A stretch of 63,672 nt of DNA. Origin: Planctomycetota bacterium. GTDB lineage: Bacteria; Planctomycetota; UBA8108; UBA1146. The stretch covers positions 1 to 63,672 of the forward strand of contig JAPKAM010000005.1 in assembly GCA_028825265.1 (NCBI GenBank), given 5' to 3'. Each line of letters opens with the position of its first letter. Within the stretch, counting starts at the first letter, position 1. Of the stretch, positions 2,782-32,744 are shown in pieces. The notes under the pieces are model-generated. The model did not search any database. It was not told the origin of the DNA and saw only the letters and a program-made list of their open reading frames with translations. The translations under genes and the position numbers were made by a program.

Positions 2782-5685
2782 ATGTCACCAATCCGCTTGA
2801 TGATCTTGTGGCTCAGTTGCTTGGTCGGTTTCTCGACTCCGGTCGAAGCCGGCGCGAGAATCCAGGAAGATGGTTGGGTTCCGGTGCCGGTTCCTGGGCG
2901 CTGGGAAACCGCTTTCGGAGATCACGATGGCCACGGCTGGCTCAAGGCATACCTGATTCTTCCAGAGAGTTGGGCGGGAAAGGATCTGGTGCTCCACGCC
3001 GGCCGAATCGATGATCAAGATGAGACCTTCTTCAACGGCGTCAAGATCGGTGAAGGATCGGTTTGGAATCAAGATCGGATCTATGCCATCGATGCGACGT
3101 TGGCCCATGCAGGGGCCAACTTGATTGCCATTCGGATCAAAGATACCGGTGGAAGTGGCGGCATCACCGGCGGGTCCCCGTTCATCGAGGGACCGGACGG
3201 CCGTATCCGCCTCGATGGAGGAACCTGGCTCGGCCGCAAGGGAGACGACTTCTCCTGGAAGGAATGGCCCGTTCCGCAGGGGTCGTTGCAGGCGATGCTG
3301 ATGGCACGGCAGTATCTGGCCACCCAGGGAGCGGGAGCCCGTGCACCGGGTGGCGGAATGCGAACCTCGGGCGAGGCGACCCGACCGAGCGGAGATCTGA
3401 TCCTCTGGTACCGGACACCGGCCGGGAAAAATTGGAACGAAGCGCTTCCGGTCGGCAACGGCAGACTGGGAGGGATGGTGATGGGGGATCCCCGTCACTG
3501 GAAAGTTCAGCTCAATGAGGACGGAGTGTGGGCCGGGACGCCTGCCAACCGTGTCCGTAGGGGGGCGCATCTCCATCTGGACCGGGCACGCGATCTCATC
3601 TTTTCGGGAGAGGTGGTTGAGGCACAGAAACTGTTGCAGGAGCAGTTCATGTCGCCGCGTATGACTCGCTCATACCAGACACTGGCGGATCTGGAAGTGC
3701 ATCAGGCGGATATCGAAGAGTCGATCGATTACCGTCGCTGGCTCGATCTCGATGAGGCCCAGGTGACCGAGGAGTTTACCTCCGGGGGGGTCCAGTATCG
3801 CAGAAGAGTGATCGCCAGCGGGCCGGATGATTGCGTGGCAGCGATCCTCGAAGCGGATCAACCCGCATCGATCTCCATCGATACCAAACTATCGAGAGAG
3901 ACGAGCGGTTCATTGCTTGAACCGATCCGTATCGATGGGAATCGCGCCTGGATGCGATTTGGCGGGCGGGCTTCCCACGGCGAGAGTCAGTTGGGAGCCT
4001 ATTTCGAGTGCCGGGTCAGTATCGTGGTTCAAGGCGGGCTACTGAAGATGAACGGTCCCGGGGTCACGATCGTGGGAGCGGATTCAGTGCTTTTCATGAT
4101 CACGGCAGACAGCGATCCGGATGGAGAGTTCGACCGGGAGAAGTTGGTTCTGCTGCCGGATGACGATGAAGAAATCGTCGATCCTTCCAGTCGATACCAG
4201 CAATTCAAACAGCGCCAGAGTGCCGATCATCGATCGCTGATGGATCGAGTGTCGTTGTCTCTAGGCGGCGAGTCGCGTCGCGCAATCCCGACCGACCTGC
4301 GACTTCAAAGCGTTCAACAAGGGCAGCAGGACCCCGATCTGATTGCGACCTTCTTTCAATTTGGTCGCTACTTGCTGATCAGTTCATCTCGACCAGGATC
4401 TCTTCCCGCCAATCTTCAGGGCATCTGGAATCCTCACATCTCTGCGCCTTGGAACAGTGACTATCACATCAACATCAACCTTCAGATGAATTACTGGCCT
4501 GCTGAAGTGGCGAACTTACCTGAGTGCCACGAACCGCTCTTTGAGTTCATCGATGCGCTGGTGGTACGGGGAGAAGAGACCGCCAGAGAACTCTACAATG
4601 CTCCCGGTTGGGTGGCGCACCACACCAGTGATGTTCATGCCTTCACCGTGCCGATCGGGAGAACGGTATGGGGATTGTGGCCGCTGGGCGGGGCATGGCT
4701 TTGCCGTCATCTGTGGGAGCACTATCAGTTCGGGGGAGATGAAGAATTCTTGCGTGAACGTGCATGGCCAGTCTTGCGTGGCGCCAGCGAGTTTTTCTGC
4801 ACTTACCTGGTCGAGGATCCTGCGACAGGAAAGCTGGTCAGTGGTCCATCTTCCTCTCCGGAGAACTCCTACAAGACTCCCGATGGCCAGGTGGCAGATG
4901 TCGGGATGGGAAATGCGATGGACCAGGAAATCATCTGGGACCTGTTCAGCATGACTCTCAACAGTGCCAAGGTTCTGGGTATTGAAGATGATCTGGTGAA
5001 CACCATCCGTGAGACCCGAAGCCGGATGGCCAGGCCCAAGATCGGCCAAGACGGTCGTATTCTCGAATGGTCACGACCATGGCAAGAAGTGGAGAAAGGG
5101 CACCGCCACATGAGCCACCTTTATGCCCTGTATCCCGGTGAGGAATGGACCGCTGAGCAAACTCCTGAACTGGTGAGCGCTGCTCGTCGTTCGATCGAAT
5201 TTCGCCTCGCCAATGGCGGTGGGCACACCGGTTGGAGTCGAGCCTGGTTGCTCAACTTCTTCGCCCGGCTCGGGGAGGGCAACACTGTGGAGGAGAGTCT
5301 GCAGAAACAACTGTCCAAATCGACTCTCCCCAATCTGCTCGATGATCACCCACCCTTCCAGATCGACGGTAATTTTGGGGCGACCGCGGGAATCGCTGAA
5401 GCTCTGGTCCAGTCTCATGGGAAAGTGCTCCGATTGCTTCCTGCACTTCCCGATGGCTGGGCCGACGGTGAAGTGGCTGGATTACGTACCCGATTTGGGG
5501 TCGAAGTCTCCTTGCGCTGGAAAGATGGTTCCATCGAGTGGGTTCAGCTGGTTCCATCTCGTGATGTTTCATTGATCCTGGCGAGTGATGGGCAGAAACT
5601 GGATCTGACGCTGGTCCAGGGGAAGACCACTGAATTACGGACCAGCCAAGGTCGCCTGATTTCAGGTGAGCCGGTCGGAGAGTGA
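2782..5685 (+). CDS. Glycoside hydrolase family 95-like (alpha-L-fucosidase) with N-terminal jelly-roll module
   Basis: [28 protein letters not shown]...[60 protein letters not shown] are GH95 hallmarks. Confidence 0.92.
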
Positions 5686-5746
5686 TGGATGACGCAGATG
5701 AACGGTACAATCAGATGATCCCGCTGACCCCCTGGAGGAACTCCCG

Positions 5747-7858
5747 GTGAATCCCCGCAACCTGATCATCGCATGTACCATCTTGCTCGTGATCGTCACG
5801 GCGATGGTGTTGTTTCTTCCTGACGATGGGCCGCTGAGCGGCGAGATCGATGGGCCGTCCCAGGATCCATCCACCCGCAGTGGCCAGGGCACCTCCTTCG
5901 ATGAAGGCGGGACCAGCAGCCGTGATGGAGGGGCAAACACATCTTCCAGAACTGACGGGTCGGGCCGCTCTGATGAAGACTCTTCCGCTAGCGCCGTAGA
6001 CACCACCGGTACTCGGTTTCGCAATCAAGGAACAGGATCGACCGGAGGATCTTCTGCAGTCGAATCGGGAGCGACTTCTTCCGGGCAGGATCCCCTGTCT
6101 AACAGTCGCGGAGCCGCGGATTCTCGAGGTTCGGGGAATCAGGGTTCGAAGCCTGGCTCTCGAAGGGGAAATCAGGCTTCTGCTAGCCAACTTCCAGATG
6201 GAATGGTGCGGATCAACGGTGAAGTGATGCTGGAAGATGCTCCCACCGAGGTGTTGGATCAATTGTCTGGCCATCTTCAGATCGGATCGCTGGCTGGTTC
6301 TCGTTCGATCCCGGTGATTCGTGGACGGTTTCAACTGGTCACGCCGCAGGAGGGTGCGATTCAGTTTTTTGGTGCGATCATCGAAAATCGTCCTGCCCGG
6401 GTGGTGGCTCCGATCGGCATCATCAAATCTCGAGCCGCTGGAGTGGTGCGGGTGATTCTCCGATACGACGCACTCACGATGCTCTCCCTGAAATCAGCCG
6501 TTACTGGTGAAGAGTTGACCGATGTCGAGGTGATCCGAGTGCAGGATTACTCTCGTAGTTCACTGCCTCACCCGGGATGGGCGTTGCCGGAAGATCCCCG
6601 GATCGTCTCGCAGCAAAGTCCGGTCGCGCTCGACGGGCGGATCGGGTCGATCGGATCCGCGGTGGCGCTTCACGCCCGAGCTCTAGGTCACGAATGGCGT
6701 CGGATCACCGTCGATCTGGTGGCCGGGGGTGAACGAGAACTGAGCCTTGAGCAGAGTGGGACCATCTCGTTGAGATTGTTCGGCGATACCGAGAGAGAAG
6801 GAGTGGTTCTGCGACTGCGAGAGCAAGGTCGAGCGGGATCCCCTCATTCGGAAGTCACCGTCACCGGTGTCTCGACCCAGCAACTCGAGGGACTGTTGCC
6901 GGGGTCCTGGATTGCAACATTGGAATCGGGCCACTGGGCGCATCAACCAGAGGTCTTTGATGAGATCTCCTTCGAATTGACGACCGAAGATGTGCTCGAA
7001 CTGGATTTGGAGATTCCATTCGATGATGAAGAGAGAGTCGATCTGGCGGGCTCCGTGTTCATTCCCGAGGGTTGGCAACTGGACAACTTCTCGGTGAGGA
7101 TCAGACCCACGGGTCCTGGTAGCGACCCCATCAACGACACCATCGAGGTGCAAAGTGTTTCGATGGTCAGCACCTCGATGGCCGGAGGCTTCCTCTGGGA
7201 ATGGGGTCCAGTGCAGGTGAAACAGGGGAGCCACGGTATCCTGGTTTTACCTGTCGGGGTCGGAGACCTGTTTCAGGTCGGCGAAGATGGGTTACTGGAT
7301 GCCAACATCGAATTGCCCGCACCTGTCGACATCTCGGTGCAAACGGTGCTTGCCGATGGAACGGGCGTGGCCACACCGAGTTTGATTCGGTGGGCTCCGG
7401 TTCGTCCTCCCGGAACCCCGGGTGCTGGGGCGATCCCGGTCGGATCGGCCACCAACGGTTTCTTCCAGTTCCAGGTGCCGGTGGGGGCCGTGTTGATCTC
7501 CTGCTCCGATGTGGCGTACCGACCCACGCATCAACAAGTTCAGGTCACTCTTTCGGGACCCAACGAGTTCACATTGCCACTAGAGCCCGCAATGGGGATG
7601 CGGCTCTTCCTCGATGAGAACGGAACTTCAGTTCCGTGGGATCTGGCCTGGCATCCCGCAGTGAGTGCACAGGGGCATAACGGCACAGTGGTGACCCGCG
7701 GCCGTACCGGGAATGGCTACCGGGTGCTGGTCAGTGCACCAGGGCTGTATCTCGTCACCGTTCCCGAATTGACAGGCTTCATGCCTGTCGACCCCTTTGT
7801 CGTACAGGCCATCGAAGGCAATGTCGTCGAAGAACTGATCCAACTCGAATCGGAGTGA
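5747..7858 (+). CDS. Membrane-anchored/secreted protein with Ser/Gly/Thr-rich linker, function unknown
   Basis: GTG start; N-terminal TM (LIIACTILLVIVTAMVLFL) then ~130 aa low-complexity linker, then beta-rich region. Confidence 0.7.
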   Translation: MNPRNLIIACTILLVIVTAMVLFLPDDGPLSGEIDGPSQDPSTRSGQGTSFDEGGTSSRDGGANTSSRTDGSGRSDEDSSASAVDTTGTRFRNQGTGSTGGSSAVESGATSSGQDPLSNSRGAADSRGSGNQGSKPGSRRGNQASASQLPDGMVRINGEVMLEDAPTEVLDQLSGHLQIGSLAGSRSIPVIRGRFQLVTPQEGAIQFFGAIIENRPARVVAPIGIIKSRAAGVVRVILRYDALTMLSLKSAVTGEELTDVEVIRVQDYSRSSLPHPGWALPEDPRIVSQQSPVALDGRIGSIGSAVALHARALGHEWRRITVDLVAGGERELSLEQSGTISLRLFGDTEREGVVLRLREQGRAGSPHSEVTVTGVSTQQLEGLLPGSWIATLESGHWAHQPEVFDEISFELTTEDVLELDLEIPFDDEERVDLAGSVFIPEGWQLDNFSVRIRPTGPGSDPINDTIEVQSVSMVSTSMAGGFLWEWGPVQVKQGSHGILVLPVGVGDLFQVGEDGLLDANIELPAPVDISVQTVLADGTGVATPSLIRWAPVRPPGTPGAGAIPVGSATNGFFQFQVPVGAVLISCSDVAYRPTHQQVQVTLSGPNEFTLPLEPAMGMRLFLDENGTSVPWDLAWHPAVSAQGHNGTVVTRGRTGNGYRVLVSAPGLYLVTVPELTGFMPVDPFVVQAIEGNVVEELIQLESE

Positions 7859-14875: not shown

Positions 14876-16216
14876 TCAGCAGCCGTTGTAGATCTGGCAG
14901 TTCTGCGGTTCTCCGGCATTTCCACAACTGGGGAAAGGAGGAGGAGGTGCCGCTCCGTTGGTGAAGATGTAGGAGATCAACCAGACCGGATCCGCAACAT
15001 CGAACAGTTGGTCTGCATTGGAATCCTTGGAGTCGTGGCAGGTTCCTTGAGGACCCGAGTTGAAGATTTCCTGCAATGACCAGACGACATCTGCGACGTC
15101 AGTGATACCGTCGCCATTGGAATCCCCGCGAACGAAATCCAGCACCGACTGAGGATTCAGGATCAGTGATCCATCATAGGTTATGGGGGCAAGGCTCTGA
15201 TTGTTGAAAGTGATCACATTGAAGATCGGTGGAGTGCTGTGACTTTGCCAGGAGAGTGGTACGGTCGCTCCTACCTCATCTCCGGCCAGGACCGATTGCA
15301 CGGTGGATCCCGTTAGGCTGACGGCATTCGTTGGACTGGAAAACTGGATGTATACCGGCAACTGAAAAGCGTACACCACTCCAATCGCCCAACCCGATTC
15401 GGTCAGGATCGCCTCGGAGAATGCAGGGTTCGCCTGAGCGACGGGCCCGGCCACCATGGCTCCCGTGGGAACGATGTAGGTCGAGTCGGTGACCAAACTC
15501 ATCGAGAAGCCTTGAGTGTTGGAAGGGTAGGTCGCATTGGCTGGATCTTCTGCGATGGTCATGAGTGCGTTGAAGTTGGCCGAACCGTCGATGGGGTCAT
15601 AGTTGACCTGTTTGTCGGGAGCGGTGAAGTAGAACAGTGTCGGAGGCTGCTCGAGTATCTCGATGGTGCCATCGGTGCTACTCATCGGATTCGAGCTTCC
15701 ATTGACCACCGCGACGCTGGAAACCGGTGGGTTGCCGAGGATATTGCAGAGGCCAACAGTGGTCAACGTCCCGGCCGGTCCGAGCAGGCGGTAAAAAGCG
15801 GTTCCGATCTCGGTCGAACCCACATCCATGACGGCACAGGAGGTGAAACAAATCACGCATCCGACCGCCCAGCCGCCCGATTCAAGGTTTTGCTGGAGGA
15901 AATCAGGTGGCGAACCATTCTTGATGGTTTCCATCTCGGTGGACCAGTCGATGACGTAGTCAAATTCTCCTGTGCCGGGTCCAACCGGTTCTAGTGCGAC
16001 CATGTTGGTATCGTGGCAAACTCCGAAAGAGAACCCCTGGACCCCTGTAGGAGCGGAATGGGTGAGAGTGAGAGTGACTGGAACGAGTCCGCCTTCGGCT
16101 GCAGAGCCGCTGGAGAAACTCATGTCGTAGCCACCACCCATGGCTGTGGCCAGGGCTGGAAACTGAAATAGCATCAGGCTGGCCAGTATTGCAGCGTGGA
16201 TCGGTCGAATTTTCAT
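14876..16216 (-). CDS. Secreted protein with C-terminal EF-hand/dockerin-like repeats
   Basis: Signal peptide; GDSNGDGITDVADVVWSLQEIF and DSNADQLFDVADPVWLISYIF repeats; C-terminal PPPPFPSCG...C motif. Confidence 0.8.
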   Translation of the reverse strand: MKIRPIHAAILASLMLFQFPALATAMGGGYDMSFSSGSAAEGGLVPVTLTLTHSAPTGVQGFSFGVCHDTNMVALEPVGPGTGEFDYVIDWSTEMETIKNGSPPDFLQQNLESGGWAVGCVICFTSCAVMDVGSTEIGTAFYRLLGPAGTLTTVGLCNILGNPPVSSVAVVNGSSNPMSSTDGTIEILEQPPTLFYFTAPDKQVNYDPIDGSANFNALMTIAEDPANATYPSNTQGFSMSLVTDSTYIVPTGAMVAGPVAQANPAFSEAILTESGWAIGVVYAFQLPVYIQFSSPTNAVSLTGSTVQSVLAGDEVGATVPLSWQSHSTPPIFNVITFNNQSLAPITYDGSLILNPQSVLDFVRGDSNGDGITDVADVVWSLQEIFNSGPQGTCHDSKDSNADQLFDVADPVWLISYIFTNGAAPPPPFPSCGNAGEPQNCQIYNGC

Positions 16217-20270: not shown

Positions 20271-21560
20271 ATGGGTTTCACTCTTCGACCCGAACGCCTT
20301 TTTGAATTCACATTGAAATCCACCTTCGGATCCAGCGTCGGTTGGCTGTGCGGTCTCTGGCTGAGCATCGCCACTCCAGCGGGGATGCTCCATGCGGTAG
20401 ATTCCATCACCTCGCATGTGCCCAAGCCGATCAATATCGAAGTGGATGTGCGAGAAGCGGAAACCGAAATGTTTCTGCTCGTCGATGAAACCTTGTTTCT
20501 CCACTGGTTTTCTCTCGCCCCCAAAGCGATCGATGACCTCGATCCGGAGGTGAAGAGCGAATGGGGAGACTATGGAAATCGAGTGGTGGAATGGCTCGAT
20601 TTGCATGCGCCAGTTCAGGTGGATGGGGTCCAGCTGATTCCAGTGCTTACTGATCTGGAGTATCAGGAAGGATTCGATCTTAACGATCTGATGAACTTCG
20701 TCGCCATCACCGTGACCTATCCGACCAAGGCGCGGCCCCGGCAGCTTGATTTCATCTGGAGTCGGTTCGACACCGAAGATGGTTTTCCTCTCGAATCGGT
20801 CTATTACGTGCTCTCCACCAGAGACGATTATCAGGTATACCGATTCCAGGAAGACACACCCGGCTGGAGCTGGAGCCCGCCCGAGGCGGAGATGATGATC
20901 GACCCGGAGCTGGTGGCACCGGGAATCCGCATGCCGTGGTTCAGTATCGACCTCCTTCCGGTTCTGTTCAGTATCATTGGTGTGATCGTGGTCTGGAGAT
21001 CGAAGCGATTCACAAGGATCACGGTCGCCACTGGATTGATCTGCGCTGCATTCGCCTTATTTTTCCTGGGAGAAACCAAGGTCGATGTCCGTCCATTCTG
21101 GCTCTCGCCAGTGGTGCTGCCTCCTCCCGATCAAGCGGAAGCCCTTTTCGAAAGTCTTCACAGGAACATCTACCGCGCGTTTGACTACGAAGATGAGGAG
21201 CAGATTTACCAACTGCTCGCACGAAGTGTTTCCGGTGAGTTACATCAGCAAATTTACGACGAGATTCACGAAAGCCTGATGATGCGGATCGAAGAGGATG
21301 CGGTCTGCGATGTACGTGCAGTGCGATCTCTAGACACAGAAGTCATCGCTAATCCTAAGGTGGTGGAGCCGATGTTTCGGGTCCGTGCCCGGTGGGAAGT
21401 GATCGGTACAGTGAAGCACTGGGGACACAGCCACTGGCGGAAGAATTTATCAACAGCGCTGTACGATGTTCGTTGGATTCCTGAAATCGGATGGCGAATC
21501 GATGGAGTCGATATGGTGGAACAACGACGTCTGGATGATGGTCAGGAGTTGATCAAATGA
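20271..21560 (+). CDS. Membrane protein of unknown function, first gene of ABC-type operon
   Basis: 429 aa; two TM segments; Trp/His-rich TVKHWGHSHWRKN; stop overlaps the next gene's ATG. Confidence 0.7.
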   Translation: MGFTLRPERLFEFTLKSTFGSSVGWLCGLWLSIATPAGMLHAVDSITSHVPKPINIEVDVREAETEMFLLVDETLFLHWFSLAPKAIDDLDPEVKSEWGDYGNRVVEWLDLHAPVQVDGVQLIPVLTDLEYQEGFDLNDLMNFVAITVTYPTKARPRQLDFIWSRFDTEDGFPLESVYYVLSTRDDYQVYRFQEDTPGWSWSPPEAEMMIDPELVAPGIRMPWFSIDLLPVLFSIIGVIVVWRSKRFTRITVATGLICAAFALFFLGETKVDVRPFWLSPVVLPPPDQAEALFESLHRNIYRAFDYEDEEQIYQLLARSVSGELHQQIYDEIHESLMMRIEEDAVCDVRAVRSLDTEVIANPKVVEPMFRVRARWEVIGTVKHWGHSHWRKNLSTALYDVRWIPEIGWRIDGVDMVEQRRLDDGQELIK

Positions 21561-22222
21561 CGGGTTCTCCTGTTTCAGTCTCCGACCTGGTTCATTGCCA
21601 TCCGGGTCAACAACATCCGATTCGTGTCGACAAGATCGCCATCGAAGCGGGAGAAAAGGTCGCCATCATGGGGCCATCCGGCTGCGGGAAGACGACGCTT
21701 CTCTCGTGTATTGCTGGCATTCTATGTCCATCCTCGGGCGAGGTTCAGGTCGGGGAAATCAGAATCGACCAGCTATCGGATGCGAAACGCAGGAAGTTTC
21801 GCCGAGAGCACATCGGGCTGGTATTCCAAGAGTTCGAATTGCTCGAACACATCGATGTGAGGGAGAACTGCTATCTTCCGATGTGGCTCGATGGTCGAGA
21901 GCCGACTGCGGAGGAACAATCCAAGTTACTCGAGCGGTCTCGCCGCTGTGGCATCGAGGATCTACTCCACCGGAAACCGAGGGCACTCTCCCAGGGAGAG
22001 AGGCAGCGGGCGGCGGTCTGTAGAGCGCTGATGACATCCCCATCGTTGATCCTGGCCGATGAACCGACTGGCAGTCTCGATGGAAAGTCGGGGAGAGCGG
22101 TACTGGAACTGTTATTTGAGGAGGCCGATTTGACGGCAGCTACGGTCATCGTTGTGACCCATGATTCGTCCATCCTGGCGGGATTCGATCGAGTCGAGTC
22201 GCTGACGGGAAGTGCCTCATGA
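21557..22222 (+). CDS. ABC transporter ATP-binding protein (LolD/MacB type)
   Basis: GPSGCGKTTL Walker A, ALSQGERQRAAVCRAL signature, LILADEPTGSLD Walker B. Confidence 0.92.
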   Translation: MTGSPVSVSDLVHCHPGQQHPIRVDKIAIEAGEKVAIMGPSGCGKTTLLSCIAGILCPSSGEVQVGEIRIDQLSDAKRRKFRREHIGLVFQEFELLEHIDVRENCYLPMWLDGREPTAEEQSKLLERSRRCGIEDLLHRKPRALSQGERQRAAVCRALMTSPSLILADEPTGSLDGKSGRAVLELLFEEADLTAATVIVVTHDSSILAGFDRVESLTGSAS

Positions 22223-23397
22223 GTGGCCCGATGCTGAGACTGGCTCTACGATCGCTGGCACATCATAAGGTAAGAACCGTGGTACTCGCACTGTGCATTG
22301 CACTGGTCGGGGTGCTTCCTGCTGCGGTCGATGGATTGCTCGATCTGTATCGTGCGAGACTCGAGGCGAGGGCGGTATCGACACCGCTGGTGGTCGGGGC
22401 TCCGGGAAGTCGATCGGATCTGTTGATCCATGCACTCTACTACAGGGGTGTGGTGGAGCGGACCATCGAGATGAAGGTCGCCATGGAAGCGGGCGAATCT
22501 GGTTATGGCGTACCGATTCCCATCCACCTGGAGGGATCGGTGAATCAATATCCGCTGGTTGGAACCACTCCTGATTATCAGGAATTCCGAGGGATCCTTC
22601 TGCCGTCCGGGCAACACTGGCCACAACGATTGGCCGAGGCCGCGGTGGGAACCGGAGTTGCGAAAGCCCTCGATCTTTCGGTCGGCGACTCCATCGCCAC
22701 CGATGTCCATAAACTCCACGATCTGGCTGGATCTTATCCTTTGTTACTGAAGGTGACTGCGGTGATTCCTGCCACGGGCACACCAGACGATGACGCCGTG
22801 TTCGTCAGTTTGCACACCTCCTGGGTGGTCACTGGAGAAGGACATGGGCACCTGGAAATCGACCCGGAGAAGGACTTCCACTTGGTGCTGGAGAGCAAGA
22901 GTAATCACGTCACGGCCTCCGCCGCGGTGGTGGAAGCGGTCGAGGTGACCGCGGAGAACGAGGACAGTTTTCACTTCCATGGAGATCCGGATCAGTTACC
23001 GATCACTGCATTGATCATCCACGCCAAGGATGAGAAGGGTCGCACGATTCTCCGTTCGAGGTTTCGCAGGCAACAGGATCTGCAAACCATCGACTCGGAG
23101 GTGGAGTTGAGAGAACTACTGACGGTCGTGATGAGAGCGAAGGCGATTCTCGATGCCAATTCGATGCTGGTCATGGTGGCGACGACACTCCTTCTGGGAT
23201 TGATCGTGACACTCGATGTGAAAGTCCGGGAGCGAGAAGTGAAAACTTTGGAGAGAATCGGCGCTCCACGGGGTTTTGTTGCTCGTTTGCTCTTCACCGA
23301 GGTTGCCATCGTAGTTCTCTGTGGCGGATTCCTGTCCCACTTGTTGGCCATTGCTGCGATTCGATTCGTGGCGGATGGTCCTCTGCTCTTACCGTGA
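22219..23397 (+). CDS. FtsX/MacB-type ABC transporter permease
   Basis: N-terminal MLRLALRSLAHHKVRTVVLALCIAL; C-terminal VKVREREVKTLERIGAPRGFVARLLFTEVAIV; overlapping ATGA junctions. Confidence 0.82.
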   Translation: MSGPMLRLALRSLAHHKVRTVVLALCIALVGVLPAAVDGLLDLYRARLEARAVSTPLVVGAPGSRSDLLIHALYYRGVVERTIEMKVAMEAGESGYGVPIPIHLEGSVNQYPLVGTTPDYQEFRGILLPSGQHWPQRLAEAAVGTGVAKALDLSVGDSIATDVHKLHDLAGSYPLLLKVTAVIPATGTPDDDAVFVSLHTSWVVTGEGHGHLEIDPEKDFHLVLESKSNHVTASAAVVEAVEVTAENEDSFHFHGDPDQLPITALIIHAKDEKGRTILRSRFRRQQDLQTIDSEVELRELLTVVMRAKAILDANSMLVMVATTLLLGLIVTLDVKVREREVKTLERIGAPRGFVARLLFTEVAIVVLCGGFLSHLLAIAAIRFVADGPLLLP

Positions 23398-24368
23398 TAA
23401 AGGACGACTCGATGCGGCCACGTCAATTGATGCTACTCCTGTTGCTGGTGGTGGCTTCGGTCAGTATCGGCTGTTCGATGGATTCGGCACCGGCCGCCGG
23501 TGAGGGTGATTCCTCGATCATCGACAGCGGCACCCCGCTGCAATTGGTGGTTTCCATTTCACCGTTGGCATGGATCGCATCTGAACTGGTGATGGATCTG
23601 GGCGAGGTGACGCCACTGATGCCCACGGCTGCCGACCCAGCCCGCTGGATCCCCGACGATGCCGCTCTGGAGACTCTTGCGGCTGCGGATCTCATCATCC
23701 TCAACGGAGCGAATCTAGAGGGATGGGCTCGAAGATACTCGCTTCCCATCGTCAAGAGCGTCGAGGTGGCTAGGGCCTGTCGTGAGCAATGGCTGCACTA
23801 TCCGGATGTGGTGACTCACAGTCATGGTCCAGAAGGCAGCAGTTCTTACGAGGGGATTGCCGGCCACACCTGGCTCGACCCAGAGCTTCTGATCGTGCAG
23901 GGAGAGAGGATTCTTCATCGGCTGATCCAGCGGTTGCCCGAACATCGGGCTGCACTGGAGAAGCGCTGGAGTCTGCTGGTGCTTCCGCTCGAGGCACTAG
24001 CGAAGCGGATGTCGAAACTGGCCACGACCCATCCGGAACTCTCGGTGCTGACCAGCGGTCCCTTCTGGGTCTATCCCGCGGCCAAGATGGGGTGGTCGAC
24101 CCAACGTATCGATCTCGACCCGCAAGGAAAATGGAACGATGGTCTGGCCGCCGACCTCAAGCAACTTCAGATCCGCAGCGGAGCCCTGATATTGCTTTGG
24201 GATCAAGTTCCAGCGACACCACTGGCCGAGCAAATATTCAACGAAACTGGCCTGGTCAGCGTGGTGTGGCCGGTGGCGGATTCGTTGGGAGAAGACCATC
24301 GGCAGTACCTGGAGATCCAACAACAGGTGCTGGATCGGTTGGAAACCGCCCTGTCAGAGTCCCACTGA
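23394..24368 (+). CDS. ZnuA-like (cluster A-I) metal-type substrate-binding lipoprotein
   Basis: Lipobox VASVSIGC; VVSISPLAWIASEL, LIILNGANLEGWA, GHTWLDPELLIVQGERI; part of the same overlapping operon. Confidence 0.8.
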   Translation: MIKDDSMRPRQLMLLLLLVVASVSIGCSMDSAPAAGEGDSSIIDSGTPLQLVVSISPLAWIASELVMDLGEVTPLMPTAADPARWIPDDAALETLAAADLIILNGANLEGWARRYSLPIVKSVEVARACREQWLHYPDVVTHSHGPEGSSSYEGIAGHTWLDPELLIVQGERILHRLIQRLPEHRAALEKRWSLLVLPLEALAKRMSKLATTHPELSVLTSGPFWVYPAAKMGWSTQRIDLDPQGKWNDGLAADLKQLQIRSGALILLWDQVPATPLAEQIFNETGLVSVVWPVADSLGEDHRQYLEIQQQVLDRLETALSESH

Positions 24369-26540: not shown

Positions 26541-28013
26541 TCAGGGACCACCGACCGCCAGCATCAGATCGAATTGTGCCTGGTTGTGGGAGACGATGGA
26601 ATTGAGGGAAGCGGTTCGAGCTGCGGCGAGATCCGCTTCCCGTCCGAGCAGTTCTTCCAGTAGTGCGGCACCAGCCTTGTAGCGTGAATCGATCAGTGTC
26701 ATCGCTTCTTCTCCAGCTTCCAGTTGACGCTGGGCAGCGGTCATTGCCGATCGTGAAGCTTGCAGCCTGGCCAGGCTCACGCGGATCTGCGCAATGATGC
26801 GAAGTTCCAGTTTTTTCACCTTCAGCTGGATCTCCTCGAAGGCGGCCACCGCCCGTCGATGAGAAGCGGTCGCAGCGAGCCCAAACTGCCAGCCAACCGC
26901 CACTTCAGCGGTCTCCTGGTCCGATAGGTCAGCCGAATCCGCGCCGAATCTACCGACCCTGGATCTGGCGCTGATGGTCGGGCGACCCCATGCAGAAGAC
27001 GCCCGGCTGAGGGATCGAGCCGATTCGGCCCTGGCGCGAGCGGCCATCAGATCGGGCCTTCGGTCGAGTCCTCTTTGGATCAGTTGAGCGACATTCGACG
27101 GGTCCAGCGCGAATCTATTGGGAGTGATTTGGGTCGAAACGGGAACCAGAAATGGATCGAAACTGGGATCATCCGAGAGCACCAAAAATTCAGCGAGTTT
27201 CACCGAGGCGATCTGGGCGTGAGATTGAGCGAGAGCCAGATCTCGATCGGCTGCGGCTTCTTTTGCCAGTGCCCCGAGGAAATCTTCACGCAGCCCATCC
27301 CCGGCATCGAGCCTGGCACTGGCAGTCAGGGCGAGTTGCCGACCAAAACGAACCGCACGCTCTGCGATTTCGATTTCGCCGTGGGATCGGACCAGCTCGT
27401 GAAATAGCTGGGCTCCGCGATGGATGGCAAACTGTTCAGCCCAATAGAGCATCTGTTCGGTGGCTTCGAACTGACCCCGCGCTGCCTGGTGACGATGCCA
27501 ATCTCCCCAAGGATCGAGATCGAAGCGCAGTTCCATTCCAGTGAAGAGGCTGTTCTTCGAAACATCGACGACCGTTCCATCGGTTTCCTGCGCGGCACCA
27601 TCGGTGCGTGCATAATCGATTCTCGGGCCGATGGTTGGCAGGAATGCAGAAGTGGCGATCTGTTGAGTGGCCACTGCCGCATCGAGGCGCTGTCGAGCCA
27701 TATGAATCGACAGCGCTTGGTCCTTGGAGAGCTGTAGAACGACATCCAGTGTGATCGGATAGATCGTAGTCTCGCTGGATGTATCTGCAGGGAGGGGCTC
27801 GTTGGAAACCTCGATCGCCAAATCAGTTAAATCGCCGGGCTCGTCATCGCGTCGCTCGGGTAAACCAATTGTACGGGCAGGATCCTGCTCGACCGTCTCG
27901 ATCGGCTGCGGAATCCAGAGAGCCATTTCACTCGACCGATGACGGGTCGAAGTGTCCGTGCTGCACGAGCTCAGAGCTATGGCCATCAGAGTTATGGCGA
28001 ACCATCGCAACAT
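26541..28013 (-). CDS. TolC-family outer membrane efflux lipoprotein
   Basis: Lipobox MLRWFAITLMAIALSSC from start at 28013; paired coiled-coil OEP repeats; last gene of RND operon. Confidence 0.85.
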   Translation of the reverse strand: MLRWFAITLMAIALSSCSTDTSTRHRSSEMALWIPQPIETVEQDPARTIGLPERRDDEPGDLTDLAIEVSNEPLPADTSSETTIYPITLDVVLQLSKDQALSIHMARQRLDAAVATQQIATSAFLPTIGPRIDYARTDGAAQETDGTVVDVSKNSLFTGMELRFDLDPWGDWHRHQAARGQFEATEQMLYWAEQFAIHRGAQLFHELVRSHGEIEIAERAVRFGRQLALTASARLDAGDGLREDFLGALAKEAAADRDLALAQSHAQIASVKLAEFLVLSDDPSFDPFLVPVSTQITPNRFALDPSNVAQLIQRGLDRRPDLMAARARAESARSLSRASSAWGRPTISARSRVGRFGADSADLSDQETAEVAVGWQFGLAATASHRRAVAAFEEIQLKVKKLELRIIAQIRVSLARLQASRSAMTAAQRQLEAGEEAMTLIDSRYKAGAALLEELLGREADLAAARTASLNSIVSHNQAQFDLMLAVGGP

Positions 28014-28087
28014 GATACTCTCCGCTCGATACGAGAAACCGGTCAAATTACTGGACCATGGATGACGGATAGGGTGGGTATCGAGGA

Positions 28088-29524
28088 TCAAGGATTGGCT
28101 CCCACCGCTTCGACTCGGTCGCCTTCTTGTACCAAACCTTTACCGATTAGGATCACCTGCTCGGTTCCGCTCAAGCCTTCAGTGATTTCAACGGTAGTGC
28201 CGTCATCGAGTCCGATTTTGATCGGGAACGCCTGGCAAATTCCTTTGACCACGCAGTACACGTGGTATTCACCGGTTGACCCGAGTAACGCCTGAGCCGG
28301 AAGGGTCAATGCGTTTTTCCGCTCGATCAATTTGAAATCGACGGTCGCAAACATACCCGGATAGATCTGCCCTTCCTTGTTCTCGAGCAAGATCTCAACT
28401 GTCATGGTGCGTGTGCGTCGATCGAGATTTTTAGCGATCCGCGAAACGGATCCCTGAAACTTTCTATTCGGATAAGCGCTACAGGTGATCGCCGCCGCGT
28501 GACCCTCCTGGATGTAAGGGACATCCGGTTCAGGGATTTGAACGTAAACGCGTAAGCGACTCAAATCTTTGAGTGAAACGATCGCGGTCGTCCTGGATGA
28601 AGAAGATGTGACGATGGCGGCACCCGGATCGAGAAATCGTTCAGTGATAATTCCAGAAAATGGCGCCCGAATCTTGGTGTATCCGACCATCGTGGTGGCG
28701 AGATGGACCCGAGCGCTAGCGCTGGCGATGGCGGCTTGTGCCACGGCGACCAGGCTATCGAGAGCTTCCTTTTCCGATTGCGCCACTTGGATGTTCGCTG
28801 CTGCGGCTCCCACCATCGCTTCCGCTGATGTGACCGACTTTTCGCCAATCGCCACATCGCTGAGAGCCTGAAGATGATCTCTCTGGGCAGTTTCGAGCTG
28901 AGCATCGGTGGCGGCATCTTGCTCGTGGAGTTGGCTCACTCGATCGAGATGAATCTTCTCGGCATGGTGGATGGCTCGTGCCTTGTCTAGTTTTGCGTGG
29001 GCTTGCAATACTGTAGCGTCGGCCTGAACAAGTCCTGCCCTGGCTGCAACGATCTGAGATTCTCCGCCGGTCGCTTTTGCCTGAACCGCACCGAGCTGGG
29101 CCCGGGCTTCCAGCACCTTGGCCTCGGCACGGCGCAGCTCGTCAAACAGTTCAGGAGCATCGAGGACTGCGATCACCTGGTCCTTCTCCACAGTGTCTCC
29201 GATATCCACGTGGATCTGTTCGAGATAACCATTGGTCCTGGCGTAAAGAGTCGCCTCCTGGACTGCATGAATCTCGGCAGGTTTCGATGGGAGTTCGTAG
29301 GTGAGGGTTTTCTGGGCCGGTTGGATGACGGTGACACGAGGTGTCTTGCCGCCCGACTGTGCAGCGCAAGGCGGTGTCGAGAGCCCCATGACCAGAATCA
29401 TGAGCCAGAGCGAGGAGTGCTGGAGACCACCAGCTCCATTCGACAGGCGGGTGATGGACTTGTGGTTCGAAGATCTGATCATTGTGCTATTCCTTCCGTA
29501 ACTCATCGCGGGCGAGCAGGTCAC
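28088..29524 (-). CDS. RND efflux periplasmic adaptor (HlyD/MFP)
   Basis: ATLYARTNGYLEQIHVDIGDTVEKDQVIAVLDAPEL; TKIRAPFSGIITERFLDPGAAI; TMTVEILLENKEGQIYPGMFATVDF. Start may be the internal M near 29482. Confidence 0.92.
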   Translation of the reverse strand: MTCSPAMSYGRNSTMIRSSNHKSITRLSNGAGGLQHSSLWLMILVMGLSTPPCAAQSGGKTPRVTVIQPAQKTLTYELPSKPAEIHAVQEATLYARTNGYLEQIHVDIGDTVEKDQVIAVLDAPELFDELRRAEAKVLEARAQLGAVQAKATGGESQIVAARAGLVQADATVLQAHAKLDKARAIHHAEKIHLDRVSQLHEQDAATDAQLETAQRDHLQALSDVAIGEKSVTSAEAMVGAAAANIQVAQSEKEALDSLVAVAQAAIASASARVHLATTMVGYTKIRAPFSGIITERFLDPGAAIVTSSSSRTTAIVSLKDLSRLRVYVQIPEPDVPYIQEGHAAAITCSAYPNRKFQGSVSRIAKNLDRRTRTMTVEILLENKEGQIYPGMFATVDFKLIERKNALTLPAQALLGSTGEYHVYCVVKGICQAFPIKIGLDDGTTVEITEGLSGTEQVILIGKGLVQEGDRVEAVGANP

Positions 29525-32500
29525 TGATCACTCGAGTTTTCCCGGAAATGAGTTCATAAAGTATCGGAACGACGAAGAGTGAAAGCCCCATCGCTGCTAG
29601 TACTCCTCCGATGATCGCTCGAGCCAGAGGAGCATTTGCGCCCCCTCCGAATCCGAGGGCCATCGGAAGGAGTGCCAGTACTGCTGCAAGAGAAGTCATC
29701 AGGATGGGGCGAAGCCGTGTGCGAGCAGCGGTCTGAATTGCCGCTCGAGTTTCCTGCCCTTCGTCCCGTAATCGATTTGCGTAGTCGATCATCAGCACGC
29801 TGTATGCGACGACGATCCCCGTCATCATGATGATTCCCATGAATGATTGAATGTTCAGGTTGGTGTCGGTGAGATACAGCATCCACGCCACCCCGGTGAA
29901 GCCGAGCGGTACCGAGGCGAGGATAATCAGTGGATCTCGGAAGGAACGGAATATTGCGACCATCACCAGGTAAACCAGCATCGCAGCCACCAGTAGGCCG
30001 AAGGCGAACTGTCCGAAGGAATCTCGGGCTTGCTGGATCTCTCCTTTGATCTGCACGCGATATCCCTTATCGCTGTATTGATCCATCAGTTTCTGCATTC
30101 GTGGCGATTGTTCCAGTCGCTGTTCGATATCACTGACGACGCTACCTAGGTCTTTCCCGACAACATTGGCGTAGACATTGGTCACCCGGGTGATGTTGAC
30201 GTGGTTCACCACGGTGGGACCGGTGGTGCGTTCGAATGTGGCGATGTTTCTCAGCAGGATCGGTTCGGTGGAATCTCCCGAACTGGGTCGTATCGGAATG
30301 TTTTCGAGGGTAGCAAATGAATTGATCTCACCTTCCGGGTACTGAGCACCGATGAAGTAGTGATTGCGTTTCTTCTTATCGATCCAGAAGGAAGGACTGA
30401 AGGTGACACTCGAATTGGTCGCCGTGATGATGTTCTTGACCACTTCATCCGGGGTGATTCCGAGATAGGCCGCCTTGACTCGATCGATCACGATGTGAAT
30501 GGAAGGGTAGTCGAGACGCTGGGCTACTCTGACATCGACCGCTCCGGTAACCTGACGAACCTCCTCGGAGATGGTGCGTGCGATCTCCTGGCCTACTTCG
30601 AGCTTGCTTCCGGTAACCTGGATATCGATCGGAGAGGGCAGCCCGAAGTTGAGTGCCGCAGTGAGAATCCCGCCGGTATCGAAGGCGAACTCTATGCCCG
30701 GAAACCGTTGTGTCAGACGCTCTCTCAGTAGCACCGAATAATCGATGGAACTTTTCGAGCGCTCTTCCTTTAACTGCACCAGCATGAAAGCGTCCATCGG
30801 ACCGGTATTGGGAGTGTAGGCCGCAGGCCAATCCATCAGTACGCCGAGATTCGAGATCAACATCTGAAGATCGGAAGAGGCTTCCTCGTCACGAGGGTCC
30901 CACTGGCCGATCACATCCTGAACCTCATTCTCGACCTTCTCGATTAGCAATTCAGTGTTCTCGATGCGGGTTCCGGATGGGGCTCTGACGAAGATGGTGA
31001 ACTGGCCTGAGTCGGTCGCCGGGAACAGCTCCTGGCCCACTTTTGTTGGTGCAATACTCCAGGGAACACCTGGAATCAGCCCCAGGGAAATCAGGAAGAA
31101 GATGAGTACCGAGAAGCCGACCAACTTTTTTCGATGAAGGACTCGATCGAGCATCGTTTGATAGAGACGACCGATACTCTGGAAGAATGCTGGCTCGTGT
31201 TCCTCACTGCTGCCGCTTCCACCAGGCTGGGCCTTGAGGAAACGCGCGCAGCAGAGCGGGACTACGGTCAGCGCCACCAGGAATGAAGCCGCCATCGACA
31301 GGATCACGCTGATCGCCAGTGGCGTGAACAGGAACTTGGAGATTCCACTGAGCAAGACCACAGGGAAGAACACCACCATGATGGTGATGGTGGCCACAAA
31401 CACCGGGCCGGCGACTTCGCTGGCTCCATCGAGGGCCGCTCGGGTCGGGGTTTTCCCTAGGCTCAGATGGCGAGAAATATTTTCCAACGTCACGATGGCC
31501 TGGTCGACGATCAGCCCTACCGCCAGTGCCAGCCCCCCCAGCGTCATGCTGTTGATGGTATTGCCACTCAGATACAGGCCGATGAATGTCGCCAGGGCGG
31601 CCAAGGGAAGCGACAGCAAGATGATCAACATCGAGCGGACACTTCCGATGAAGATCAGCACGATCAGCCCGGCCAAAAATGCGCCGATCAGAGCCTCATG
31701 TTCGAGGGCGGAGATGGAGTCTCGAACAAAGATCGACTGGTCCATCACGACCTCAAGAAGGACATCATCGGCACCTTCGTACATATCGACGACTCGCTGG
31801 CGGATCTGTGTCAACTTGTCGCGAATCTCGTTGACGATCTCGATCGTATTTGCGCCCGGTTGGCGGTAAATGGGAATGTAGACCTGGCGACGGCCATTGA
31901 TCCGTACCACGTTGGTTTGGATCGATTGAGTGTTTTCAGCCTTGGCAACATCGCGCAGGAAGACGGGTTTCCCATCGACGATTTTGATCAGTATGTCATC
32001 CAGTTCCGGAATCTCGTCGACCATTGCATTGGTCGTGATCATGTAATCGAGGTCACCCAGTTTCGCATTGCCGGTCGGGATGAAAACATTTTGGTCCTGG
32101 ATCGCCCGAACCACATCCATCGGTGACAACTGACGAGCTTCTAGTTTTTCTCGATCTAGATAGGCGAAAATCCTACGTAGCACTCCACCGTAGACAGCAG
32201 GGGCCACCACTCCGCGAATCGACTGCAAGCGGTTACGCAGTTCGTAGTAAGCGACATCGTAGAGTTGCTGTTCAGACATGGTTTCCGAAGAAACGCTGAC
32301 CAGGCACAGCGGCACGGACGCCGTCGGGTCAAACGGCATTACCATCGGCGGAATCGTGCCAGGTGGAAGGTAAAACAGGTCACTCATCGCGTAACTGGTG
32401 ACCTGGGACATCGCACTTTCCATGCTGATGTCTTCGCGGAAGAAGTCCTTGACGATGGACACACCGGTCATCGATTTCGCTTCTTGATGGGAAATCCCGA

Positions 32501-32744
32501 CCGATTGGCCGGTCCAGCGCTGCATTCGACTGCTGATGTCCCCTTCGACCACCTCGGGAGGCATGCCGTTGTAGAAGGTCACGACCTGAACTGCTGGAGT
32601 CCTGAAGATCGGCAGCAGGTCCGATGGGAGTTTGGTCAGGAAGATGATGCCGAGGGAGATCACGGCGAGCGTGATGACAAGGATGAGATATGGAAAACGG
32701 AGTGCTGATCTGACGAGCCACATGTTTGGACTGCTCCAATTCAT
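29487..32744 (-). CDS. RND efflux transporter permease (AcrB/CusA superfamily)
   Basis: 1085 aa; GGLALAVGLIVDQAIVTLENISRHL; FMGIIMMTGIVVAYSVLMIDYANRLRDEG; RLRPILMTSLAAVLALLPMALG. Confidence 0.95.
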   Translation of the reverse strand: MNWSSPNMWLVRSALRFPYLILVITLAVISLGIIFLTKLPSDLLPIFRTPAVQVVTFYNGMPPEVVEGDISSRMQRWTGQSVGISHQEAKSMTGVSIVKDFFREDISMESAMSQVTSYAMSDLFYLPPGTIPPMVMPFDPTASVPLCLVSVSSETMSEQQLYDVAYYELRNRLQSIRGVVAPAVYGGVLRRIFAYLDREKLEARQLSPMDVVRAIQDQNVFIPTGNAKLGDLDYMITTNAMVDEIPELDDILIKIVDGKPVFLRDVAKAENTQSIQTNVVRINGRRQVYIPIYRQPGANTIEIVNEIRDKLTQIRQRVVDMYEGADDVLLEVVMDQSIFVRDSISALEHEALIGAFLAGLIVLIFIGSVRSMLIILLSLPLAALATFIGLYLSGNTINSMTLGGLALAVGLIVDQAIVTLENISRHLSLGKTPTRAALDGASEVAGPVFVATITIMVVFFPVVLLSGISKFLFTPLAISVILSMAASFLVALTVVPLCCARFLKAQPGGSGSSEEHEPAFFQSIGRLYQTMLDRVLHRKKLVGFSVLIFFLISLGLIPGVPWSIAPTKVGQELFPATDSGQFTIFVRAPSGTRIENTELLIEKVENEVQDVIGQWDPRDEEASSDLQMLISNLGVLMDWPAAYTPNTGPMDAFMLVQLKEERSKSSIDYSVLLRERLTQRFPGIEFAFDTGGILTAALNFGLPSPIDIQVTGSKLEVGQEIARTISEEVRQVTGAVDVRVAQRLDYPSIHIVIDRVKAAYLGITPDEVVKNIITATNSSVTFSPSFWIDKKKRNHYFIGAQYPEGEINSFATLENIPIRPSSGDSTEPILLRNIATFERTTGPTVVNHVNITRVTNVYANVVGKDLGSVVSDIEQRLEQSPRMQKLMDQYSDKGYRVQIKGEIQQARDSFGQFAFGLLVAAMLVYLVMVAIFRSFRDPLIILASVPLGFTGVAWMLYLTDTNLNIQSFMGIIMMTGIVVAYSVLMIDYANRLRDEGQETRAAIQTAARTRLRPILMTSLAAVLALLPMALGFGGGANAPLARAIIGGVLAAMGLSLFVVPILYELISGKTRVISDLLARDELRKE

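Follow-up and report, generated by a model that had tools for sequence, protein, structure and literature searches.

What does an operon handle, and by what means, when it encodes a ZnuA-fold lipoprotein together with a LolD/MacB-type ATPase and an FtsX-type permease? We addressed this question for four consecutive genes (g1-g2-g3-g4) at positions 20271-24368 of the plus strand of a 63,672-nucleotide stretch of DNA, here called the window, from a Planctomycetota bacterium (contig JAPKAM010000005.1 of assembly GCA_028825265.1). On balance, and with some reserve, we favour the view that the operon is a Zrg-like MacB/FtsX mechanotransmission ATP-binding cassette (ABC) module for a periplasmic transition metal, most likely zinc. 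Strictly conserved His pairs in three of the four encoded proteins suggest, as far as sequences can tell, an unusual route of periplasmic handling for such a metal. The four genes, hereafter the cassette, are:

20271..21560, plus strand: g1, membrane protein of 429 amino acids (aa), an open reading frame (ORF) without a significant Pfam family
21557..22222, plus strand: g2, LolD/MacB-type ABC ATPase (ABC_tran PF00005, 4.4e-33)
22219..23397, plus strand: g3, FtsX-type permease related to ZrgB (FtsX PF02687, 6.7e-7; also profile scores, tree and counts of transmembrane (TM) helices)
23394..24368, plus strand: g4, ZnuA-fold (cluster A-I-like) lipoprotein (ZnuA PF01297, 2.4e-27; also profile and Foldseek matches)

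All four ORFs were confirmed by an ORF check and a Pfam scan, and the non-canonical make-up that a first-pass annotation of the window had ascribed to the module, an FtsX-type permease with a LolD/MacB-like ATPase and a ZnuA-fold lipoprotein, was borne out. The same annotation had joined the genes by 4-nucleotide overlaps; ATGA overlaps are certain at the g1/g2 and g2/g3 junctions, but an overlap of g3 with g4 requires that g4 start at GTG 23394. An alternative start for g4, ATG 23412, has AAAGGAC upstream as a good ribosome site, gives no overlap with g3, and is likely to be at least as good. The g2 product carries Walker A (GPSGCGKTT), signature (LSQGER) and Walker B (LILADEP) motifs, and its best NCBIfam models are of the bacteriocin-export, DevA, LolD or FtsE type, every score lying under the model cut-off.

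The motifs on which much of the argument turns are the following:

21417..21437, plus strand: HWGHSHW motif, g1 aa 383-389; H383, H386, H388, R390 and N392 invariant in 40 sequences
22840..22851, plus strand: GHGH in the g3 periplasmic domain, aa 208-211; both His invariant in an alignment of 27 permeases (A1)
22966..22986, plus strand: SFHFHGD in the g3 periplasmic domain, aa 250-256; both His invariant in A1
23634..23648, plus strand: DPARW, site of the classical ligand His-1 of g4, Ala here
23814..23828, plus strand: THSHG loop of g4, with its two His and its Gly invariant
23862..23882, plus strand: GHTWLDP, classical ligand His-2 of g4, retained here
24051..24080, plus strand: TSGPFWVYPA, site of the classical ligand His-3 of g4, Gly here

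Judged by profile comparison, g3 is related to ZrgB. A profile of the core permeases, as we call those of the cassette, reached 94 bits with a Phaeobacter inhibens permease whose gene context (a Fur-family regulator, DUF2796, ATPase, permease and DUF3299, in that order) marks its locus as a true Zrg locus, and 104 bits with a Catenovulum permease adjoining a DUF3299 gene; scores against Escherichia coli YbbP, LolE, MacB, FtsX and LolC were at most 20 bits. The Zrg precedent invoked in the first-pass annotation thus holds for the core of the module, at 94-104 bits against ZrgB-type permeases. In a tree, a well-supported branch parts the core permeases from ZrgB and from a group of alkaline-phosphatase-linked permeases, so relatedness to ZrgB is meant here and orthology is not implied; YbbP was the sole intruder among the core permeases, on a very long branch that makes its placement unsure. 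In 100 of 107 relatives, hydropathy predicts three TM helices (one early, two late), as against four in ZrgB-type and most comparison permeases, and the Pfam FtsX match of g3 covers profile positions 5-73 of 120. MacB-type permeases pass ATP-driven motion to periplasmic parts and have no classical import cavity.

In every one of the 27 diverse A1 sequences, HGH and HxH keep their His residues. By pattern search, HGH or HAH was present in 107/107 permeases, as was HxH preceded by an aromatic residue or Val (107/107), and FHxH was found in 0/4 distant permeases. The two motifs singled out from the window at the outset, SFHFHGD in g3 and KHWGHSHW in g1, rank with the best-conserved sites in their protein families, with His conservation across phyla that is far from chance. 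The alkaline-phosphatase-linked permeases belong to the same wider group (75-110 bits with the core profile) but lack the ZnuA-fold gene, g1 and the FHxH motif. In Shinella, Deinococcus, Paracoccus, Thermus and Ensifer (loci L096, L097, L098, L099 and L182), the sister permease genes adjoin two others, one for an alkaline phosphatase and one for a small hypothetical protein; nothing in the PDB matched one such short protein.

The g4 product, with the lipobox SIGC, has the ZnuA fold claimed for it at first, but it is no ordinary ZnuA. By profile it is nearest to zinc-type proteins (best YcdH, 3.9e-47; also AdcA), and its AlphaFold2 model (mean predicted local distance difference test (pLDDT) 87.7, good except around the His loop) has YcdH, AdcA and ZnuA as best Foldseek matches (2o1e, 1.3e-18). 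Among 89 relatives, the classical His-1 is His in none, with the Trp of the DPARW site kept in 86; His and Thr each occupy the His-2 position in 38, and the His-3 position holds His in 72. The window's g4 retains His-2 alone among the classical ligands, His-3 also being lost in its genus. As an internal control, the other ZnuA-type protein of this genome keeps its ligands (DPH, DPHLW, AHDAFGYF). Across the relatives, neither His of the HSHG loop varies. These sequences point to a membrane-anchored protein of ZnuA fold in which the classical metal cleft has decayed and the His loop has stayed fixed; the loss of ligands led us to reject an ordinary ZnuA partner role for g4.

The AlphaFold2 model of g1 (pLDDT 79.6) and hydropathy together give a predicted layout of a signal or TM helix (22-45), a periplasmic beta-rich domain (54-201), a TM hairpin (224-268) and a periplasmic NTF2-like domain (286-421), the latter three seen in the model. 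Its best Foldseek matches in the PDB were Cu-bound Ang-1 (3.1e-6) and the zinc-binding proteins ZrgA (1.8e-5) and PA4063 (1.4e-4), with ARC6/PARC6 also matched; by size and secondary structure, the ZrgA/Ang-1 match would belong to the first domain and the ARC6-like folds to the second. On this model the periplasmic side would carry both a ZrgA/Ang-1-like domain and an NTF2-like domain with the invariant motif HxxHxHxRxN. The shorter pattern HxxHxH occurs in 92 of 93 sequences. A copper histidine-brace was considered since some relatives have His directly after a likely signal peptide (19/93 by a crude pattern); it was rejected for the window's g1, which has none. At seven loci (L068, L070, L071, L077, L087, L089 and L091) g1-like genes were seen without other cassette genes on the fetched stretch, possibly as paralogues with a different role, and at locus L137 a gene for a DUF3313 protein (5596-6291) lies upstream of the ATPase gene, at the position expected for g1.

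The four-gene cassette is conserved across many phyla. Among 392 Planctomycetota genomes, the permease profile found 84 places in 83 genomes at 322 bits or more, the remaining matches reaching at most 103 bits (counted from the match list), and g1 is present in 86; in the family to which the window's genome belongs, g1 is present in 16/16 genomes and g4 in 14/16. A scan of named genomes, made with a smaller permease alignment (A2) than A1, returned at least 352 permease relatives, the best 80 of which come from Planctomycetota, Verrucomicrobiota, Pseudomonadota (gamma and beta), Desulfobacterota, Acidobacteriota, Gemmatimonadota, Myxococcota, a Xenococcus metagenome-assembled genome (MAG) and others. 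Nearly all are MAGs, so individual taxon labels need caution; cassettes also occur on two complete plasmids from cultured Methylomagnum and Paracoccus. The order g1-g2-g3-g4 is kept in most of 40 loci viewed and, among the 74 loci with sufficient flanking sequence, g1 and g4 accompany the permease in 54, g4 in 65 and g1 in 61. A single-protein search of genome contigs with g4 found no relatives.

How does the cassette stand to known systems? It shares with Zrg (ZrgABCDE of Vibrio, PA4063-PA4066 of Pseudomonas) a split MacB-like permease and ATPase with periplasmic metal-binding proteins, a sequence-related permease and a g1 model that resembles ZrgA. Unlike Zrg, it includes a protein of ZnuA fold and an NTF2-like domain, its permease has three rather than four predicted TM helices, none of its four proteins matches the DUF2796 (ZrgA) family, and neither its own genes nor the two flanking genes scanned encode DUF3299 (ZrgE); lacking DUF2796 and DUF3299 genes, it is therefore no plain Zrg system. 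With the cluster A-I importers ZnuABC and AdcABC it shares the ZnuA fold of g4, nearest to YcdH and AdcA, but g3 is of FtsX type, the locus has no ABC-3 (PF00950) permease, and the His/His/His-(Asp/Glu) site of g4 is incomplete, with His-1 gone in 89/89. MacAB-TolC and LolCDE likewise combine an FtsX-type permease with a LolD/MacB-like ATPase; here, however, the four genes include no adaptor or lipoprotein-sorting partner, the g3 profile scores at most 15 bits against them, and three TM helices are predicted. The Anglerases (Ang-1 with HupE/UreJ-2) provide the best Foldseek match of g1 and also join a metal domain to a membrane part (PMC12537917), but that membrane part is another, and the window's g1 lacks the N-terminal His after the signal peptide.

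Replacement of ZnuABC was rejected as an explanation. On another contig the same genome carries an ABC-3 operon that encodes two ABC-3 permeases and a ZnuA-type protein of its own, adjoined by a DtxR-like gene (read from sequence), and the ABC-3 family is common, being present in 327 of the 392 genomes and in all 16 genomes sampled from the window's family. The cassette is therefore an addition to ZnuABC-type uptake and no substitute for it. The first-pass annotation had named a separate importer with its own ZnuA, alongside a metal-unresponsive locus here, as telling against metal transport; the importer half of that statement proved true of this genome.

The genes around the cassette give a mixed picture. 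In the window's family it lies between genes for an M28 peptidase and an acetylesterase-type protein, and at other loci the neighbours are mixed. The Methylomagnum plasmid cassette lies near NikR, CopC and TonB receptors and that of the Paracoccus plasmid near two genes for DUF4198, reported as a nickel-binding family (PMC12537917). GntH-like MBL-fold proteins, mostly with signal peptides, are encoded within about 7 kb of the permease at 10 loci from Proteobacteria, Desulfobacterota and Myxococcota (L147, L163, L174, L162, L169, L175, L130, L149, L144 and L122). A few loci have FadL-type outer membrane proteins nearby. Elsewhere in the window, on the minus strand, a reading by eye recognised outer membrane efflux-type, membrane-fusion-type and RND-type transporter proteins encoded in a row (26541-32744) and a secreted protein with C-terminal dockerin-like calcium-binding repeats (14876-16216).

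We envisage that g4 and g1 would capture metal through their His clusters, and that ATP-driven motion of the g3 periplasmic domain, with its fixed His pairs served by these two membrane-anchored, His-bearing partners, would drive a hand-over of metal among the cassette proteins that might feed uptake or local delivery. Zinc is favoured because of the relation to Zrg and the nearness of g4 to zinc-type proteins; nickel, cobalt or copper may be handled instead, nickel or copper being favoured by the two plasmid neighbourhoods and the Ang-1 match. On the direction of movement, the analogies diverge: the Vibrio work supports zinc acquisition (PMC9820375, PMC9817125), and for the Pseudomonas relative export of cobalt-pyochelin is supported (PMC11481552).

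Several observations weigh against a Zrg-like metal module. The window's g4 lacks two of the three classical His ligands as well as the second His pair of the loop. A g1 profile compared with one ZrgA sequence gave no signal, so homology of g1 to ZrgA is not established and the likeness is structural only. The ZrgB examined lacks the permease His motifs, whose function therefore cannot be borrowed from Zrg. The link to metal genes and Zur boxes that the first-pass annotation had proposed to look for did not emerge: metal transport genes are not generally enriched among the flanking proteins in two Pfam tallies, and E. coli-type consensus boxes for Zur, Fur and NikR show no enrichment upstream, where the Zur consensus, which may not fit this phylum, matches no better than shuffles.

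An exporter is the alternative that survives best, although we consider it unlikely. A MacB-like core would then expel a metallophore or metal from the periplasm, as proposed for PA4063-PA4066; cores of FtsX/MacB type are usually export or mechanotransmission machines, and g3 is related to the branch of PA4065, mutants of which accumulate cobalt in a pyochelin-dependent manner (PMC11481552), but the cassette has neither a MacA-like adaptor nor a TolC-like gene, and a protein of ZnuA fold would more typically belong to an uptake system. Less probable still is a supply line for metalloenzymes, loading zinc into extracytoplasmic hydrolases encoded nearby. The M28 peptidase that recurs beside the cassette in the window's family, the GntH-like MBL-fold proteins at the 10 proteobacterial, desulfobacterial and myxobacterial loci and the alkaline phosphatase beside the sister permeases would all fit, yet the neighbours vary by lineage and are missing from most loci, and enzymes of these kinds are common, the neighbour counts having no background control. 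Equally improbable is a LolCDE/MacB-like transporter of lipid, lipoprotein or peptide, or an envelope sensor, with the ZnuA fold recruited for another ligand: the lost metal cleft of g4, the FtsX fold, the few FadL-type neighbours and the lack of Zur boxes (by an E. coli-type consensus from which the phylum's own box may differ) agree with it, but invariant His pairs in three different proteins, the matches of the g1 fold to metal-binding domains and the distance of the permease from LolC/E and MacB by profile do not.

In summary, the cassette is real and conserved, and we regard it as Zrg-like in kind and new in form; we found no paper on it, nor a prior description of it as a unit, in the open-access library searched. 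More tentatively, it may represent a distinct, multi-phylum ABC family in which a three-helix FtsX-type permease forms an invariant-His-pair metal relay with a rebuilt ZnuA-fold lipoprotein and a ZrgA-like/NTF2-like membrane protein, serving uptake or the loading of secreted zinc enzymes. The cassette shows a ZnuA-like protein whose classical site has decayed yet whose His loop, usually auxiliary, is invariant. The role of ZrgB-type MacB-like permeases in zinc handling is disputed, importer according to the Vibrio work and exporter according to that in Pseudomonas; a widespread relative with its own ZnuA-fold protein and fixed permease His motifs therefore offers residues to mutate and a broad natural comparison set.

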